Of a stretch of 64,000 bases of DNA, positions 15,206-60,450 are shown piece after piece. Under the pieces are notes generated by a model. It had not been told where the DNA came from. It ran no database searches and saw nothing but the letters and a program-made list of their open reading frames with translations. The DNA comes from Rugalucina vietnamica (lineage: Eukaryota > Mollusca > Bivalvia > Lucinida > Lucinidae), in assembly GCA_964017185.1 (NCBI GenBank), contig OZ024874.1:50868856-50932855 (forward strand), written 5' to 3'. The position numbers and the translations under genes are program-made. Each line of letters opens with the position of its first letter. Position 1 is the stretch's first letter.

Positions 15206-15957
15206 TAGTCAAAATTAGGTTTTTTCCTCACTAGCCCTAACCCTTATTTCTTTAATCATTTGCCAAAATTTTCCAATAGCCTGACGTATAGGTAACGGGT
15301 CGTTTCGGCCGTGAGTCGTTTCGGCCTTGAGTCGTTTCGGCCGTGGGTCGTTTCGGCCTGAGTCGATTCGGCCCTGGGTCGTTTCGGCCAATTTTGGTAA
15401 GTCGTTTCGGCCTGATTTTTTATTCAATCCGTATATACTATATTATATACTTTATGCAAGATGTGTATGCTATACGACGCTAGTTTACCATGCAACCAGT
15501 CTTGCAGGGGTACTTGGGTCTATTACAGGGTGAAAAATTGCATCTTTATTCAATTAAAAACGATAGAGAAACTACAGTCGTCACTTATATGGCGTCATGG
15601 TTTATAAAACAAAAAAGCACAAACGGTTTAATTTCCTAATTTTCCTTACGTTTTTCTCATCTTAAACTAAACATTATTTTGAAAAAAAAAAGTCAACTTT
15701 AGAGATTTCTGGAGTAATGCCTGTATCAAACAGAAATGAAACCAGTTAATGCAATCTAAGCTTTACATGTACAATGCAAACAGCAACTTAACAATCCCAT
15801 CTAAGAGAATTCTAAGAAGTCTATATAAAATCTGTAAACATAGTACATGTATCTAATAGAATTTGACTTTCAAACGTAAAGATTCAGCTGTAACAAAATT
15901 TGAGTTTTTTATAACTTTTTAAAGCTACCATTTTAACGGTATTTAAAATCTCTTTCC

Positions 15958-16477: not shown

Positions 16478-17420
16478 CATTCATTAAATGTTAATGGGAA
16501 CTTCTTTCTGAGACACTAAGAATATGTGAGGCTGGAACTGTGACTACAGTACTTTCAAAACACCCCACATCATGTATATGTCCACGAAAACGCATGTACT
16601 CAAGACGATCGATTTATCTTTGAGTCATTACTTACCTGAAGATTTCCATATACTTTGGCCGAAACGACTCAGGGCCGAATCGACTCACCCAGAAAATTGG
16701 CCGAAACGACCCACCTACCAAGGCCGAAACGACCCACCCCCAAAATTGGCCGAAACGACCCAGGCCGAAACGTCTCAGGCCGAAACGACCCAGGGCCGAA
16801 ACGACCCGGATTCACTTATATAGGTATGATGGTACCTTCGAAATTCGGTGTAGTTAATGTTTAGTTGCAATGTACAGCTCTCTCAAAAATCACAGGTTCA
16901 TAATAGTTCTTGCACACATGCAGTGACACATGCTTTACCAAAACAGAATAATTGAGAAAGTGTTCACTTTATGTGTCAACATAAGTATCCTTGATTAGAC
17001 TCACTAAGGTAGGATTTTCAGCCAGACGAAAAGTCCCTTCTAAATTCGGTTTAGTAGTAAACAAAGCTCAAAATAAAGTTTTCCAGTGGTGCTGGAACAA
17101 CCTTATTTTCAGCAATTTGTAGAGCTGGATATCTCTTAAGTACTCATTATAATTTCAAAGGTTCTGCCTTAATGGGTACAACTGAGAAAAATTACTAACC
17201 CGACAACCCTTTGGCTAGGGCCGGGCTATCGGGCTAGTGCCAATTTCGATCACTGGACTATGTAATGAATAACAAAAACTAGAGTCAGTAGATTAAGAAT
17301 GTGATCTTGGTGTGTTTTTTCACAAGATACTTTAAGTTAAAATTTAGTCAGTACATATCAAAGAAGATAAACAAGACTAACTGTATATTAGCTCTAATTA
17401 GAGGAACATTTGAACACCTA

Positions 17421-52600: not shown

Positions 52601-52860
52601 GACCGTTTCGCAAGAAAACCAGTCTTCAGGGTTTCCAAATGGGAGAACCCCCAGAAAAACCACCTGGCACACCTGCAAGCAGAACTTGGCTTGTCTCACA
52701 TGTGCCACTAGTGGGGCTCAAACCCATTTGGCAAACAGTATGATACCACTTTAATTCCTAAACCTGCAATTTCAATCATTAACCATCTTCTTCTAAGACA
52801 CTACAGCCTGATTTGTGTCTGAACCTGGTCAAAAAGATTTTCATGTAACCCTGCTTCAAC
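52601..52860. repeat. Fragments of MITE family 1 around a minus-strand SINE A piece
   Basis: 52601-52639 resembles a MITE end (CAAGAAAACCAGTCTTCAGG). 52640-52740 is SINE A in reverse: on the minus strand GGGTTTGAGCCCC, GTGAGACAAGCCAAGTTCTG, CAGGTGGTTTTTC. 52750-52835 resembles a reverse-strand MITE body (CTACAGCCTGATTTGTGTC). Too eroded to delimit further. Confidence 0.6.
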
Positions 52861-53110
52861 ACATTACGAAAACTTGCCCATGCAATATATGGAGATTTTT
52901 GAAGTTGTAAAAATTGAAAATTTTCAGTAGAAAACTCTTGATATTTTTCATATTTTTGCTCAAAATATAGATTGTGGGTACACGTTAGAACCGCCTCGCC
53001 GAGGCGGTTCTAACGAGTACCCACAATCTATGTTTTGGAGCAAAAATAAGAAAAATAGGTATACCCGTGCATACTCAAGTTTTTCTATATTAAAGTGGGG
53101 TTTAAAGTGT
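52861..53110 (+). repeat. Foldback family 2, copy with long clean stem
   Basis: GATTGTGGGTAC and GTTAGAACCGCCTCG pair with their complements around the centre near 52999; the stem continues into AAAAATATGAAAAAT-like arms. Ends GCCCATGCAATATATGG and CCCCACTTTAATATAG in reverse. Confidence 0.88.
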
Positions 53111-53575
53111 CAGTAAATTTTCAATTAATTTTTTTCAATTTTGATAATTTTTGATATGTTTTAGTGCTTCGTTTGCCGAACATGGATCTGTCGAAAACTT
53201 CCCTAAAGCATTACAGATAAACCAATTAAACACTAATTAAAATTTGACTTAAATGAGTGACAGTGATAAATATATATTTTTGCCCGCCTTCACACTCGAA
53301 TTTAATGCGCAAAGTTCTGGAATTCCGGAAGTAAATAGAAACACGTGGTAAACAAAGTACATAATCGATTTTATTTACGGAGAGGCTACATAGGGGGAAA
53401 TTTAGAAAGATACCATTATAAGAAAGACCGATCAAGAACCGCGGCCTGTAGCAATTCGGCATTCCCTATGATGCGTTACCCGAACGTTGGCACATTCATT
53501 TTTATGCCAACATCATGACCACAACGTCATATTTCCTCCCTAAAGTAATGATGTGTTTGTGGTCAGCATTAATAA

Positions 53576-53589
53576 GGGGGGGGGGGGGG
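53576..53589. repeat. Run of 14 G
   Basis: Homopolymer, possibly imprecise in length. Confidence 0.9.
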
Positions 53590-53829
53590 CGAGTTGCAAT
53601 GAAATCAGAAAAAAAAACTACGTTTACCGCAAAAATTCTCAATGCCCGGGTTACTGAAAACGAGAATAAAGTGGTCTGTGGAGTATGAGCCATGTCGACC
53701 CGTAAACAACCGGAACTAAGTGTGTAAACCGGCTAACCGCCTAAGTTAAAGAGTAAACGTAGCTTGCATTCTTCGATTCACAACTCGTACAACTGGCAGA
53801 CAGAGGTGCTACAATTTTTACGAATACGT

Positions 53830-55085
53830 ACCATAACGCAGCAGTTCCGATACGCCGTGCATACGTCAATGGCATGTATAAGAATGCAACGCAGCAGGTA
53901 ATCCTAATACGCTACGTAAACGTAACGATTTATAGCTTTGTCATACATGTATATTCACGTTTCTGCGGCGTATAGCTCGCGCATCTATGATAATGTTGAT
54001 ACGACGAGGTCTGAGCCGTATCAGTTTGTTCAAGCGACGTATCATACGGTTCCACGTACGTGTGACGTTCCTGAGCTGCGTTCCCGTGGCGTATCAGTGA
54101 CTTATCTGTATTCGTATGGAATTTCACTTTCGTATGTACGGCGTATCAAGGCGTATGTGCTACGTACGTGTTACTTATGTATGGCGTATGAAGTGTACGC
54201 GTGACGTATCTACGGCGTATGTACTACGTTCTATTCTTATCTGCGGCGTATCTGTTCTGTACCATTTGCTTTTCAAAATCTATGAGAACAAACGGTTGTG
54301 TTCACTTTGTTCATGCAATTTGCACATAATATCAATTATCAGAGGTCGAAGATGCCACAGGAGAAATCAGGATAATCTAGATTAACACCGAAGAAAACAA
54401 ACACAAGGGGGTGACATCTCCAAGCTCCCAATACTGGTCTAAAGACGAAATGAACAAAATCAGAGGCTACACCAAGCGTAGCCTTGAAAGAACCCTAAGG
54501 CACCCCGGACCGTGAGAAACATCTGATGATGACTTCGAAAAAAAATTTTTATAAAGAAGCATTAAGATACGCCACAAAATATCCCTAATACTCCGTATAC
54601 GTCACACATACTCCACAGCAGCGAAACGTACATAGCACATACGCCATTGATACGCGAGATACGCCACACGCACGTCGCTGATACGCCGTAGATACGAAAA
54701 GAGAGTCGAGGATACGCCACACATACGTCTCACATACGTAGCAGATACGAAAGGTACGCTGTACATACGCCACGGTTACGTGGCATGTTATCCGCGACGT
54801 AAGTGTGGCGTATCAAGAGTATGAGCTACGTATCTACGGCGTATCTGCCACGTTGCTTTTGTATGTACGGCGTATGTTTGACGTATGTACGGCGTATCGG
54901 ACCTGCCACGTACGTCAGCGGCTACAAATTTTTAAGTGCACACATAAAAAACCTAGCATCTCGGCGTATGAGCTACGTATCGTGGAGTATGAGCTACGTA
55001 TGCTCACGTGTGTACGACGTACGCGTGACGGACCTTTCGTATATTGCTACGCCGTAGATACGTGAGTCGATACGCAAGTATGACA
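53830..55085. repeat. CGTA-rich array phased at 10-11 bases, four blocks of alternating strand
   Basis: Words such as GGCGTATG, CTACGTATC and TACGGCGTAT follow one another at 10-11-base steps. Blocks 53830-53945 and 54565-54780 are written on the minus strand (ATACGCC), and blocks 53955-54255 and 54790-55075 on the plus strand (GGCGTAT). 54256-54564 is an ordinary spacer. CpG density is far above the rest of the window. Several frames stay open through it and give repetitive peptides (YVRRI, TYVWRI), which reflect the words rather than a gene. I know no family with this structure. Confidence 0.75.
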
Positions 55086-55200
55086 GCGGTCTAAGTAATA
55101 CATCACCTAGAAACGGTGTATATATTATTTATTTGTTTGAGTGTTGCTCTTGTGTCATCAAAATGCATTTTACTAATTTTATAAGCAATTTATACATATA

Positions 55201-55447
55201 TGGCCCTTCGCATGAGAAAACCCAATAATCTATGATTTCGATCAGCTTTGACACAAACTGGCCTGTACAACCACGTGCACAGAAGAAGGCACAGAGAAGC
55301 TTGAAATTTTGGATGTTAGAAGAAGAGGGATAGCACTTTCAGTGTAGCGAAAACAAAGGTGCTGATCAGCTACATATATGCATATACTGGGAAGCTGATC
55401 TGCGCTTTTGCATTGTTTTGTTTTGATTTTTTCTTATGTTGCAGCTC
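55201..55447 (+). repeat. Palindromic MITE family 1, diverged forward copy
   Basis: GGCCCTTCGCATGAGAAAAC to CTTATGTTGCAGCTC. The hairpin is interrupted by a CATATATGCATATA insertion. Confidence 0.78.
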
Positions 55448-56035
55448 ATATAAATCAGTCGTTACCATAAAATAATCCCTTTAAATAAGATTTATTTTAC
55501 AAACTTATGTTTTGAAATTCAATTGATTTCTAAGCGACCAAAATTCAAAACGATCAAAGCCTCAGTACAAAGGTAGCATTGCGGTCTATCATTCTAAAGA
55601 AGGCGGCCACACATATCGTGACTAGTCACACCTACACCACAGGACCGCCAGAGGTACGTCGTACGTACGCAGCTGGAGCAAGATACGTCGATCCTTGGTC
55701 TCAATCAAGTCAATTCAACGTATGCAAGGAAAGACTAGAAAGAAACAGTATTACACACAAGTAGCTCGACAATGACCACAGTCAGATCAAAGACCGAATA
55801 AGTATCGAAACTGACATGCGCACGTCACTGATACCTGTCAGTAGCATTATGACTCGTCGAGCCATATTTACTAGGGGTTCATTCACTTTGGACGCGACCC
55901 ACTGCGATTCATAGCTCCATGAACATCAGAAAAATGAAATTCATTTCTTAAATAATGGATTCATAACATTTGATAATCATATCAAATCATATTGTTCATG
56001 TATCTTAGATTGACCTTTACATGGATCTAGAAAAA

Positions 56036-56185
56036 GCCTCTGTGGTGTAGTTTTGCCAGGCCAAACATGGCCATGTGTTCCACCCCGAGCTTCTGTAGAT
56101 CTTCGGGCGAGACATTAAACCAAGATCCCGTCCTCGTGCGACCATAGCTGTTGACTGGGACGTAAAAACCAAATAAATCAACTGA
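56036..56185 (+). mobile_element. SINE 3' region with GCTGTTGACTGGGACGTAAA tail
   Basis: CGGGCGAGACATTAAACC, then CATAGCTGTTGACTGGGACG and TAAAAACCAAATAAATC. The block GCTGTTGA-TGTGACGTAAA at 58060 is related. Typical of the conserved tails shared among animal SINEs. Confidence 0.6.
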
Positions 56186-56401
56186 ATGCACATGACTGTA
56201 CCATATCTACTGTCAATATCCTTTCATCATTTGGTCTTCCTATCAAAATTCAAAATGATGAGTTTTCTACCAAAAACTTGTATCCCTGGGTTTCAGCATA
56301 TCGCTATTAGCGTTTCCTGTTGATGTACGGATTTGGAATTTAATTGTTTTAGTTCCTCTGCATTTTTCCGTTTTTACTTTTTAAATGTTCCTTACGTTCT
56401 A

Positions 56402-56575
56402 AGTAATGTCGGGACGGAGTCACCGCTTCCGGGGTTTTAACCAGCACTCTGGGATGTTAATTAATGTGCATTACTCAAGGACAAAGCACTATGCCACCAG
56501 TGGGGATCGAACAAAAGGACCTCTCCACACGGAGTCCGATGCTCTATCAGAACGCCACTGCGCTCCCCTACTTTT
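56402..56575 (-). mobile_element. tRNA-derived SINE B
   Basis: The minus strand reads AGCGCAGTGGCGTTCTGATA, GAGCATCGGACTCC, then TGTTCGATCCCCACTGG and TCCTTGAGTAATGCACATTA. A and B boxes are recognisable; there is no intact tRNA fold. Confidence 0.78.
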
Positions 56576-56929
56576 TGGAGTCAACCACATACGTTCTAAC
56601 TAAGAAAGTGAATACCCACACTTTATGTTTTCGTTCATAAATAACGAAGTTATAGGCGTTTTAATTTCTGAAGTGATACATCTTTAATTGTATCAAGTAA
56701 ATGGAAACGTCAGAAGTAATCCAAAATCTACAGTGAAGTCAGTCACTAGTGACTTTTGATATCAGTGAGATTTGATATCAGTGAAATTTCATATCAATGA
56801 AAATACCAATTTTATCAAGTTTTGATATGCACTGATTTTCACTGTAAAGTATAAAATAACTTCATGTATTTCACTTTTATAGAATGAACTTGGTGGAGCC
56901 ACGTTTTTGCTGTGTTCTAACACAGTGTC

Positions 56930-57275
56930 GTCACTATACAGGCCGGTGGATCCCGGTTTTACTTCGGTAAACCCAGATGTTAAGCCGGATGGTTGTCAAC
57001 GATGGTGTCGGTGACGACCGGGCCCAAAACCGGCTTCACGGTGGGCAAACTTTTAATGGAGTTCCAGTGAAGGCACAGCTTGTCGTCTTAATTTCCCCCA
57101 GTTTACGATGGATCATCCCGGTTTATCATGCTCGAACGCTTTGTCCCGGTGTCGCCCAGTTCTGCACCGGAATGTCCCGGCTTGCCACGCATGTCCATGG
57201 TGGCGCTATGGTTCCATCCCAGTCCTCGTTAACCGTAGATAATCCGGGACAGTTAGAACATGGCTTAAGCATCGA
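56930..57275. repeat. GC-rich block of unknown nature
   Basis: About 345 bases rich in CCCGGT and CCGG words with a 101-codon open frame on the plus strand. No domain is recognisable. Its composition differs sharply from the neighbours, suggesting a transposon fragment. Confidence 0.35.
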
Positions 57276-58019
57276 GCATTAAACCGTCTTCTACTAAATT
57301 AGCACCGTACTTCTTTGCCTAAAAGAATAATATAATGTAACTATAAGTTTAATGACAGAGGTAATCTTGTGCAAACGAGCAAAATTAGTGGTAGAGGACA
57401 ATAACTACGACAACTACTTCCACCGTGCAGTGTTCTTCAACATAACAAGGCACTTTTATGCTTCGCATAATATTGGTTGACACCCAGAAACCTAGGAACC
57501 GCTGGCGTCGTCCCAACATGACTGAAAAATTGTTGATAGTGACATGAAGTCAGAACCAAACAAAACCCAATACTACCTTCTCTCTAAGACTTTGCGCGAT
57601 GGATCCTTAAGGTCGCACAATAAAGGATGACATGTATTTTATCTAGTCATTGTTGCTTTTCTTCTAAAGTTTTGAATAAGTTTTATCCCCTGTTTTAGTA
57701 TATGTTAAAATAAATGCCTTTCAACATATTTTAAATAATTAAAGAAACTTGCAGTCATACCGGCTCTACTATCATTCCAGGCCTGTATTCGCCGGTATGT
57801 ATTGATATTTAACGTCCAATTCAACACCTTTCCAGTCATGTCGAGACGAGACCCCCGCCTCAAACTGATTTAGGATCGCCAGCAATATTGTGAAACCCTA
57901 CTTTTGGTAGACAATCTTCAAAGAGTAAGAAAGAAAAATGGGGAAAAAGAAGAAAACGCCATGTTTTTGCTTAGAGCAGATGTATCCGACGAGGGCATAT
58001 CATGACTTCCAAATGCTTT

Positions 58020-58095
58020 GAAGAAGTCAAATCAATTGGAGGCACCCTCCCGACATCACCGTAGCTGTTGAATGTGACGTAAAGCAACAAACAAA
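58020..58095 (+). mobile_element. SINE tail fragment
   Basis: CACCGTAGCTGTTGAATGTG then ACGTAAAGCAACAAACAAAC, related to the tail at 56145. Confidence 0.45.
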
Positions 58096-58187
58096 ACTGT
58101 TTAACTCGTTGAGCAAGACCGTAACTTAAGTTAGGTAGAGAATGGTCAAATGGCACTCCAAATTACCACCATTATTTCTGAGACTAA

Positions 58188-58190
<3 letters not shown>

Positions 58191-58221
<31 letters not shown>
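58191..58221. repeat. Poly-A tract
   Basis: About 30 A directly in front of the helentron-like element. Confidence 0.95.
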
Positions 58222-58225
<4 letters not shown>

Positions 58226-59141
58226 TGTCGCAGGACAGCGTAGCTCGCCTGACTTGTGCTTTGTCACTAAATCTATTAAATCTACGACCAAAGACATTGA
58301 CCTCATTGTCACTCAGGTGGGTTGTGATGGTACAGCATAAAACTTCAGACCAATATCTACCAACATGCTAAGTTCAACTTGATCCATCTACATATTTGAT
58401 ATAGACTTATAACCTAAAATCTAAGTCTGTGACCTTGACCACAGGTGAGTCGAGATGCTACAGCATAATAAAAGAATATAATATCTAACAGCAAAGTATC
58501 AACTAGATCCATCCATTTGTTCCAGCAATATACAGTTCAAAACACTTTAAGCAAAAGCTTTAACATAAAATTTCAAAGTCTGTGACCTTGAACTCAAGGT
58601 CACCTAGGTGGGTCATGATGGTACAGCATAAAACTTCAGACCAATATCTACCAACAAAGTATCAACTTGATCCCTCTACATATTCAAAAGATATAGACTT
58701 ATAAAAACTTTAACCAAAACTCTAACACAAAATTTCTAAGTCCGTAACCTTGACCTCAAGGTCACCCAGGTGGGTCATGATGGTACAGCATAAAACTTCA
58801 GACCAATATCTACCAACATGCAAAGTATCAACTTGATCCCTCTACATATTCAAGAGATATAGACTTATAAAAACTTTCACCAAAAACTCTAACACAAAAT
58901 TTCTCAGTCCGTAACCTTGACCTCAAGGTCACCCAGGTGGGTCATGATGGTACAGAATAAAACGTCAGACCAATATGTACCAACATGCAAAGTATCAACC
59001 TGATCCATCAACAACTTCAAGAGATATAGACTTATAAAAACTTTAACCAAAAACTTTAACAAAAAATTTCTAAGTCCGTGACCTTGACCTCAAGGTCACC
59101 CAGGTGGGTCATGATGGTACAGCATAAAACAGGCGAGCTAA
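58222..59141 (+). mobile_element. Helentron-like element H2, second copy
   Basis: Begins AGAGCTGTCGCAGGACAGCG (hairpin GCTGTC/GACAGC) and AGCTCGCCTG, and ends CAGGCGAGCTAA. About five tandem units of some 170 bases carry GACCTTGACCTCAAGGTCAC. It is on the opposite strand to the copy at 20557-21515. The terminal hairpin CCTGTAC/GTACAGG of that copy is missing here. The GGTACGAAATGAC array starts at its 3' end. Confidence 0.72.
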
Positions 59142-59375
59142 AAACGAAATAACCTACCTACTAGTAAATGACCAATAGATTCCATCGAACCACTTAGGTA
59201 TAAAATGACAAAATTAGTTACGAACTGACCATCTAGTACCCAGATAGCTAGGGTGGAAATGATGTGAGTGGTTACGAAATGAACAAAAATGTGTACGGAA
59301 AGACCGAAGTTGTTTTCAAAATGACATGGGTTCGGAAAAAAAAATCAGAACATTCTGGTACGAAACGATTGGAAA
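59142..59375 (+). repeat. Degenerate GGTACGAAATGAC word array, second site
   Basis: At least ten words in one direction, including GGTATAAAATGAC, GTTACGAACTGACC, GGTTACGAAATGAAC and GGTACGAAACGATTGG, at roughly 18-25-base steps. Same word as at 8630-8800. Confidence 0.68.
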
Positions 59376-60450
59376 CCATAGTGAAAATAAATGAAAATGT
59401 ATCATTGAAAATTTTACCTCAGCCCTCTCAATAGGTCTTGGCAGAATCTGTGTCCAGATGGCTTTCACTTACAATGCCTAAAACGATAAAATCATGCAAT
59501 ATGACCTGATATGTATAACATGAATGCATTACTGTTACCGGTTAATATATGCATTGAAAAGTGTGATGATCTGTGGCGGGATCTGTGGTCAGCTCGACAC
59601 TGTTATTTCGTTTTGAGAAGCGAATACTTGCCATGAGTAGTCAATACCCGTATCGAACCTCAAATGAAATATTTCTACAGTACATGTACATATAATAAAA
59701 TCGTGTCTCTATACCACTTTCAACTGTTATACAATATCTAAATTGGAGGTGGACAAGGTGCTATTCTACAGATTTATATATACACCCATCCATATGGCAT
59801 CTCAGTGGCTCCTTAAACAGAATGCGTAAAGCGAAATCCAAAATATACATGAATGGTATTATTTAGTTTTATGTTTGAAAAACACGGGGAAAAACAGAAC
59901 TGACACTGTACCCTTACCAAATGTCTAGAAGTTTTGAACTCGCCTCGTCATGGGACCTGCATAACATTCCTCCTATTCCCCGCTCCCCATCTCCTCCATA
60001 TTCCATTGGAGAATCACTGGATTTTAATATTGTTTTGCTTTCGCCAGGCATTCAGGAATTGACGAACCGCTCATGGCTATTTGTTGTTTACATTTTATTG
60101 ATGACGCGTGACGATGTGAGTGCGCAAGCCTACTACGGTACCCCGCCTTAAGTCACGCCTAAAACTCTTTATAATATTTGCGGTAGAATCGAAAAATGTA
60201 AATGAAGCAAAATTAAGGTATTTCCCTTAATTTAAGCCCAAATTAAGGCGCATAAATGAGAATTTTAATGCCCATGTTTAGGCACCATTTTAGCACAAAA
60301 CTGATGACCAAAAAAAAATTTTTTTCACATATAAAATTGATTGAAAATGTACTGTGACTTTAAGGGGGTATACATTGCACGGACATGTTTTCCTGATGAT
60401 GACCTCTTTATCACATCTTAATCTCCTATATGATATGGCACACACATCCC
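59376..60450. other. 3' flank of the receptor exon; no other gene seen
   Basis: A tip of foldback family 2 (GGGGGTATACATTGCACGGA) lies at 60363-60402. Several TTTATT words could be minus-strand polyadenylation signals; none is clearly preferred. Confidence 0.4.

Follow-up and report, generated by a model that had tools for sequence, protein, structure and literature searches.

What is the dense run of CGTA words at 53830-55085 of the window, the 64,000-nucleotide stretch of Rugalucina vietnamica DNA analysed here, and what might its regular spacing serve? The interval holds 35 CGTA and 39 TACG words (28 and 31 per kb), compared with 1.6 and 1.4 per kb elsewhere in it. All 12 plus-strand occurrences of GGCGTAT in the window fall within it, as do seven of the nine occurrences of its complement, ATACGCC. 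The total of 74 words exceeds that of every dinucleotide shuffle (mean 28.7, maximum 44, n = 1000), and 17 same-strand pairs lie 11 bp apart, against a shuffle mean of 0.35 and a maximum of 4 (n = 1000). Jittering the words by up to 8 bp led us to expect 4.6 pairs at 10-11 bp; 18 were observed, a number equalled in none of 2000 jitters. An earlier note had described CGTA words phased at 10-11 bases and had proposed autocorrelation against a shuffled control as a check. The peak at 10-11 bp is present. The features of the locus are listed here.

53102-60363, plus strand: F1, the carrier, read as a TTAA-flanked transposon; about 6.3 kb in copies such as L038
53830-53929, minus strand: block A, a diverged piece of array that lies in F1 next to F2
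53930-53932, no strand: F2 left target-site copy; TTA in the window copy, TAA in 12 other F1 copies
53933-55091, plus strand: F2, a non-autonomous TIR DNA transposon with CGTA arrays; 1159 bp in the window
53933-53957, plus strand: F2 left TIR; less decayed copies read (T)AGCNCTGTCACAYATTCACGTATC, then two more inward CGTATC words at 11-bp steps
53953-54262, plus strand: block B, left arm, inward CGTA words
54263-54560, no strand: spacer; about 0.3 kb in the window and L052, about 0.9 kb in L043
54561-54790, minus strand: block C, TACG words, period 10.50 bp
54791-55045, plus strand: block D, CGTA words with partial complementarity to C (foldback)
54929-54936, no strand: AT-rich gap TTTTTAAG within block D, where F2 has inserted into F2-type arrays in other copies
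55046-55091, minus strand: F2 right TIR region; TACG words facing inward, spaced 11-12 bp apart; the family form is TAGNNCTGTCACANNNTCGCGTATC in the inward reading
55092-55094, no strand: F2 right target-site copy, TAA

The commonest step between words is 11 bp, with shorter steps (9, or 20 for two) interspersed. Further common distances are 20-22, 31, 42 and 53 bp, which, 21 excepted, are what sums of 11 and 9 yield. Periodograms gave peaks at 10.45 bp for the plus words of block B (reached by 133 of 3000 jitters), 10.50 bp for the minus words of block C (0 of 3000) and 10.45 bp for the plus words of block D (3 of 3000). Power at 11.0 bp was low in all three; C is the best phased and B the weakest. 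Thus, 11-bp steps mixed with shorter ones produce a period in the window of about 10.5 bp, near one helical turn, rather than the 11 bp suggested by the commonest step. Blocks B and D each contain nine words of the opposite orientation, and these minus-orientation words showed no significant period by periodogram. The picture of four alternating-strand blocks in the earlier note was borne out for B, C and D. Its first minus block proved to lie outside F2: the segment 53830-53931 contains four TACG and two CGTA words, and the TACG words of block A had no significant period by the same analysis. At the right end, a short minus block at 55046-55091 has to be added. The array is CpG-dense, as had been noted, with an observed/expected ratio of 1.66 in F2 versus 0.68 outside F1. 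Searches of the whole window against Rfam and for tRNA genes returned no matches, and a Pfam search of three window frames found no families.

A second group of genomic copies, F2, stops at the limits of the array. From the left, the order is TIR, plus words (B), spacer, minus words (C), plus words (D) and short minus words in the right TIR, and the outermost words face inward at both ends. The word arms span about 300 bp on the left and about 500 bp on the right, with periods of 10.35-10.8 bp depending on the block and the copy. The TIRs are about 25 bp long and read TAGNNCTGTCACA...CGTATC at both ends. Both carry CTGTCACA; the ends read (T)AGNNCTGTCACA, and CGTATC words lie inward of that. 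Three intact inward CGTATC words at 11-12-bp steps are present in both TIRs of L045 and L053, and L043 and L052 have three in the left TIR and two in the right. In the window copy, two of the three words of the left TIR are mutated. The left and right TIRs differ in detail.

We then tallied target-site duplications in copies with both ends readable by loose end patterns, omitting L041 and L042 (truncated end) and counting F1-borne copies once. Identical 3-bp duplications, TAA or TTA, flank 11 of 17 copies (L043, L052, L053, L060, L063, L070-L073, L077 and the F1-borne insertion as read in L032), and TAA or TTA accounts for 31 of the 34 flanking triplets. In the other six copies the two triplets are one base apart: CAA/TAA in L045, TGA/TAA in L068, TAT/TAA in L069, and TAA against TTA in L058 (boundary read past a lost base), L064 and the inner element of L062. 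With TAA and TTA as the choices, half of all pairs would agree by chance, which makes the 11 matches by themselves moderate evidence. Empty sites were found for two copies. L043 (C14 near 9.11-9.16 Mb) lies in a locally repeated region in which a paralogous unit lacks F2, and L063 interrupts the array of another copy, flanked by a TTA duplication; further copies show the empty form of that sequence.

The same ends recur throughout the genome. Over the 1.09 Gb searched, the exact 20-base ends CTGTCACANNNTCRCGTATC occurred 573 + 543 = 1116 times, whereas the reversed control gave 0 + 0. The 98 exact ends on contig C1 form 29 inward pairs within 20 kb, 20 of which are 1135-1198 or 1404-1433 bp apart; longer copies include L043 (1.78 kb) and L053 (1.85 kb). 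A genome search with the C/D arm yielded 56 matches among the best 40 places of 1526 candidates, 18 of them at 97-100% identity (window included), 22 at 89-92% and 16 minor, and the left arm yielded 42 matches among the best 40 places of 2101 candidates. The longest frame in five copies (L029, L032, L038, L043 and L053) was 144 aa. In the F2 copy L068, a 486-aa open frame at oriented positions 963-2421 resembles, by eye, an inserted non-LTR reverse transcriptase.

These results indicate that the CGTA array is almost certainly the two arms of F2, a small non-autonomous TIR DNA transposon that has been mobile in the past. They agree with the suggestion in the earlier note that the words could be long transposon ends, and the search that it had proposed for other such loci has uncovered many dispersed copies with fixed boundaries in this genome. 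An ordinary satellite, which the note had named as one finding that would overturn its reading, is excluded by these dispersed copies with fixed ends and target duplications; on the array region, TRF reported just 3.4 units of 11 bp.

The window copy of F2 is itself a passenger inside the larger F1. From its ends and copies, we interpret F1 as a DNA transposon that duplicates its TTAA target and whose TIR measures about 33 bp (88% in L038). Its left end is TTAA followed by AGTGTCAGTAAATTTTC, and its right end is GTGACT followed by TTAA. F1 has 12 other copies (L029-L040), whose aligned blocks are about 90-98% identical to the window. Ten of the 12 reach the left end at 53098-53102 (the sequences of L035 and L039 begin inside F1), and every one of them stops at 60363-60365. 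With the window included, all 11 left ends read share TTAAAGTGTCAGTAAATTTTC and all 13 right ends finish in GACTTTAA, the flanks being unrelated in both cases. An extra stretch of the window F1, at about 58222-59139, is unmatched in other copies, and L032 holds a different sequence there. The longest frame in the three F1 copies examined for gene content (L029, L032 and L038) was 124 aa, and no gene was seen in them. Candidate superfamilies for F1 are piggyBac, Kolobok or another; small TTAA elements tied to piggyBac are known in corals, according to the part of that report available to us (PMC2872659).

F2 arms appear to have travelled with other repeats as well. Eleven loci (L044, L046-L051 and L054-L057), which we call F3, have a nearly identical right flank, so F2 arms seem to have spread also as passengers of a third repeat. 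Just outside the window F2, positions 53841-53869 are an inverted match to 54878-54906 at 93%, and block A is, judged by this resemblance, probably the remnant of an older element of the F2 sort. The AT-rich gap of F2-type arrays has itself received F2 insertions repeatedly, within it or next to it and in differing orientations (L042, L062 and L063). Further insertions at this gap, seen in search rows only, are at C14:50839581, C3:13160475 and C2:28506091. The gap is perhaps a hot spot for self-insertion. Two small repeats were also seen in this part of the window: 55196-55456, inside F1, is a short dispersed repeat that recurs at roughly 20 or more places in the window with about 69-82% identity, and 52859-53105 is a small hairpin repeat adjoining the left end of F1, with 38-nt arms that are 95% complementary and several copies in the window.

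To which superfamily does F2 belong? In the literature cited here, which was available to us in part, PIF/Harbinger elements are characterized by a 3-bp TWA duplication and short TIRs (PMC2213677, PMC9710019, PMC9179366) of about 14-50 bp (PMC2213677, PMC9179366). F2 has a 3-bp TAA/TTA target-site duplication, and its TIRs of about 25 bp lie within that range. Duplication and TIR together fit a placement of F2 with PIF/Harbinger. An autonomous partner with the same TIRs and a DDE_Tnp_4 transposase was not found, and F2 is accordingly filed as PIF/Harbinger-like. The Harbinger transposase domain PF13359 is common in the genome (the best 150 of 415 candidates were scored, many in open frames). 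On C1, its 17 places all lie more than 160 kb from every one of the 98 exact F2 ends; the closest is 163 kb away. Comparison by eye of PF13359 places with F2 right ends of one type (100 of 219, on C1-C5), and with looser F2 ends on C1 (100 of 1526; control 772), revealed no near pair. Three long TIR pairs (L068, L069 and L077) inspected by eye showed no transposase; L077, a 7.4-kb pair on C1, is an F2 copy carrying an insertion. Groups of PF13359 places with equal scores share the same open frame, for example 92.5 bits and 392 aa on C1, C5 and C8, which suggests recently active Harbinger elements.

The earlier note knew of no described family like this array. That was too strong in the light of published relatives, again as far as the available text of each report goes. 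The closest likeness is MtPH-A6-4 of Medicago truncatula, a PIF/Harbinger-like element with subterminal tandem repeats, some of them opposite in orientation at the two ends (PMC2213677). The likeness is one of description: the plant element has 60-bp units with a triplicated AAACNNCTTATT, whereas F2 has a 4-6-base word with a period near 10.5 bp. Helical phasing is a feature of F2 that the available text does not mention for MtPH-A6-4 (PMC2213677). Harbinger3_DR resembles F2 in belonging to a superfamily with a 3-bp duplication and in having a short subterminal motif, which is recognized there by a Myb-like protein (PMC9710019). The Harbinger3_DR motif, however, is 9 bp long and has its Myb-like protein, whereas neither a transposase nor a Myb-like gene was found for F2. 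Galileo and Foldback-like elements share long repetitive ends with F2, and in Galileo the THAP domain of the transposase binds repeated sites in the long TIRs, three binding sites having been located (PMC3688188). This precedent, too, qualifies the claim of novelty. Unlike F2, Galileo belongs to the P-element superfamily and has TIRs of more than 1 kb. Rehavkus elements carry minisatellite or satellite repeats at or near their ends, as F2 does, but they are MULE-like with a 9-bp duplication, compared with 3 bp in F2 (PMC6446971, PMC10218199). A Rehavkus/MULE identity for F2 was rejected: the duplications of F2 are 3 bp, and a BLAST overlap of 9 bp at L043 resolves to TAA. Helentrons are rolling-circle elements without a TIR or target duplication, unlike F2. 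Satellite-bearing Helentrons of the Pacific oyster nevertheless resemble it in carrying tandem repeats within a non-autonomous mobile element (PMC7492417).

A scan of a viral collection for four 11-bp-spaced ATACG words gave 20 stretches, which we judged to be unrelated short repeats because they contain 4-11 TACG per about 540 bp, in contrast to 17-22 at genome loci L021-L027, whichever strand is read. A scan of the same collection for the F2 TIR gave three matches, by estimate no more than chance. In the open-licence literature, judged mostly on titles and the starts of abstracts, we found no helix-phased CGTA array. Within the literature searched, an abundant PIF/Harbinger-like element whose two arms both carry a short CGTATC word nearly in phase with the helix is apparently new.

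Our preferred reading, which we hold with more confidence than doubt, is that F2 is a non-autonomous PIF/Harbinger-like transposon travelling as a passenger in F1, and that its words are sites, set in phase, at which a transposase or Myb-like protein would bind. The CGTA words would be recognized by the transposase, or by its Myb-like partner, encoded by Harbinger elements. Proteins on phased words would then sit on roughly the same side of the helix. With many such weak sites in phase, the ends of F2 could stand out from the rest of a large genome, and both termini could be loaded with the enzyme. The inverted C/D layout of the right arm would probably have arisen by rearrangement between repeats, as reported for similarly armed elements of Medicago; the available text also describes inversions and nested insertions in those PIF/Harbinger elements with subterminal repeats (PMC2213677). 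The best argument for binding words is the CGTATC word placed inside both TIRs, and a bound protein array, one of the possibilities raised in the earlier note, is plausible, with the Myb-like protein of Harbinger3_DR and the THAP domain of Galileo as precedents.

The strongest rival treats the arrays as passive. They would be a degenerate minisatellite, with units of 11 and 9 bp, that grew within F2 by slippage or abortive gap repair and serves no purpose, the terminal 20-25 bp of F2 being all that matters. Phase in other copies bears directly on this. In L043, L045, L052 and L053, block C peaks at 10.55 bp in all four, with 0 of 3000 jitters reaching the peak in each. Block D of these copies peaks at 10.70-10.75 bp (1 to 33 of 3000 jitters) with little power at 10.5, and the left arm at 10.35-10.80 bp (2 to 80 of 3000); the CGTA words of the whole right arm are weakly periodic (74 to 830 of 3000). 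The blocks of other copies thus have no one common period, as passive repeats would allow. We also permuted the order of steps 3000 times. The observed coherence was reached by 181 permutations in block C of the window, and by 9 and 28 in L043 and L052; by 21 in block D of the window, and by 430 and 405 in L043 and L052; and by 622, 1128 and 718 in block B of the same three copies. Coherence was clearly above random step order in three of these nine cases, namely block C of L043 and L052 and block D of the window. Independently drawn steps often matched the observed coherence (180 to 1371 of 3000), which again favours the passive reading.

None of the comparisons of conservation in the words reached significance. 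Changes in lineage consensuses were found at 25 of 491 positions in words and 38 of 849 outside, with no significant result; F3 left arms were omitted from these counts. Between the two mobile subfamilies, 9 of 306 positions in words and 32 of 584 outside had changed (p 0.09; L059, L062, L067 and L069 were dropped from the right-arm alignment as too short). Private changes showed the same ratio, 78 of 4760 in words versus 317 of 9798 outside, and a comparison of F1-branch changes with changes between the mobile subfamilies gave p 0.41. From the left-arm alignment, L048 (no usable left arm) and L049 (too short) were dropped; the nine F3 left arms kept are truncated. In these comparisons the words showed no excess conservation, as expected of passive repeats.

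Gains and losses of units point both ways. Subfamilies I and II have an 11-bp unit that the F1 and F3 consensus sequences lack, and F1 also lacks a 9-bp stretch, both as a passive repeat would predict; Medicago elements likewise vary in repeat number, which the available text attributes to abortive gap repair (PMC2213677). Against this reading, the compared arms of the mobile subfamilies differ in length by a single base of a poly-A run and nothing else. Indels of 3, 6, 2, 11, 5 and 9 bp separate subfamily I from the passenger F1, and the two comparisons have equal substitution counts (33 and 33), although these numbers are small and the 11-bp indel is shared by F3. Inward CGTATC words also lie at similar depth in both TIRs, which are otherwise different. 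Because the other copies fit a single 10.5-bp phase less well than the window does, a passive 11/9-bp repeat retains a substantial, if minority, share of our belief; as mechanisms, we hold the binding array and the passive repeat about even.

A stricter form of the binding reading is doubtful. It supposes a helically phased filament, in which a transposase or Myb-like protein would occupy dozens of CGTATC-like sites on one DNA face over both arms; the ends would be recognized by the periodic array rather than by one terminal site, and the 9-bp steps would serve as phase corrections among 11-bp steps.

TA steps at about 10.5 bp have a role in strong nucleosome positioning sequences. The words place a TA step every 10.5 bp or so, and the arms might hold fixed nucleosomes that shape access to the ends, a proposal with which the window period near the DNA helical repeat is consistent. 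We consider it improbable: nucleosome positioning needs neither strand-asymmetric words nor CpG, and it leaves the word inside the TIRs unexplained.

To a similarly small degree, we credit a role for folding, in which the C and D halves would form a hairpin, either as DNA while the element transposes or as RNA entering a small-RNA silencing pathway. The earlier note had supposed that each half could fold. For the right half (54561-55090), the sole half folded, this was supported: as DNA it reached -116 kcal/mol, compared with -84 (sd 4.4) for shuffles (z -7.5), and as RNA it gave z -7.2, none of 100 shuffles being as stable in either form. However, any minus-then-plus pair of similar repeats folds, and the three longest arm pairs are only 71-73% complementary without gaps. 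A host regulatory array, in which clustered CpG-rich sites spread by F2 act as promoter or enhancer, would suit the CpG ratio of 1.66 within an AT-rich window, but the words track the TIRs and boundaries of F2, and we regard this as very improbable.

Returning to the preferred reading, phased binding sites in a PIF/Harbinger-like element, F2 bears on a wider question. Why some transposons have long repetitive ends is described as open, with Galileo, Foldback and Phantom named, in the available text of PMC3688188. F2 offers at least 1116 exact ends, subfamilies with their own changes, and passenger copies in F1 and the third repeat. Passenger arms should be free of transposition duty, and the contrast between mobile and passenger arms could test selection on helical phasing; the sample read here is too small to decide it. 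Elsewhere in the window, a 15-16-bp minisatellite, GGCCGAAACGACCCA, and its complement form two nearby arrays at 15299-15389 and 16657-16807.
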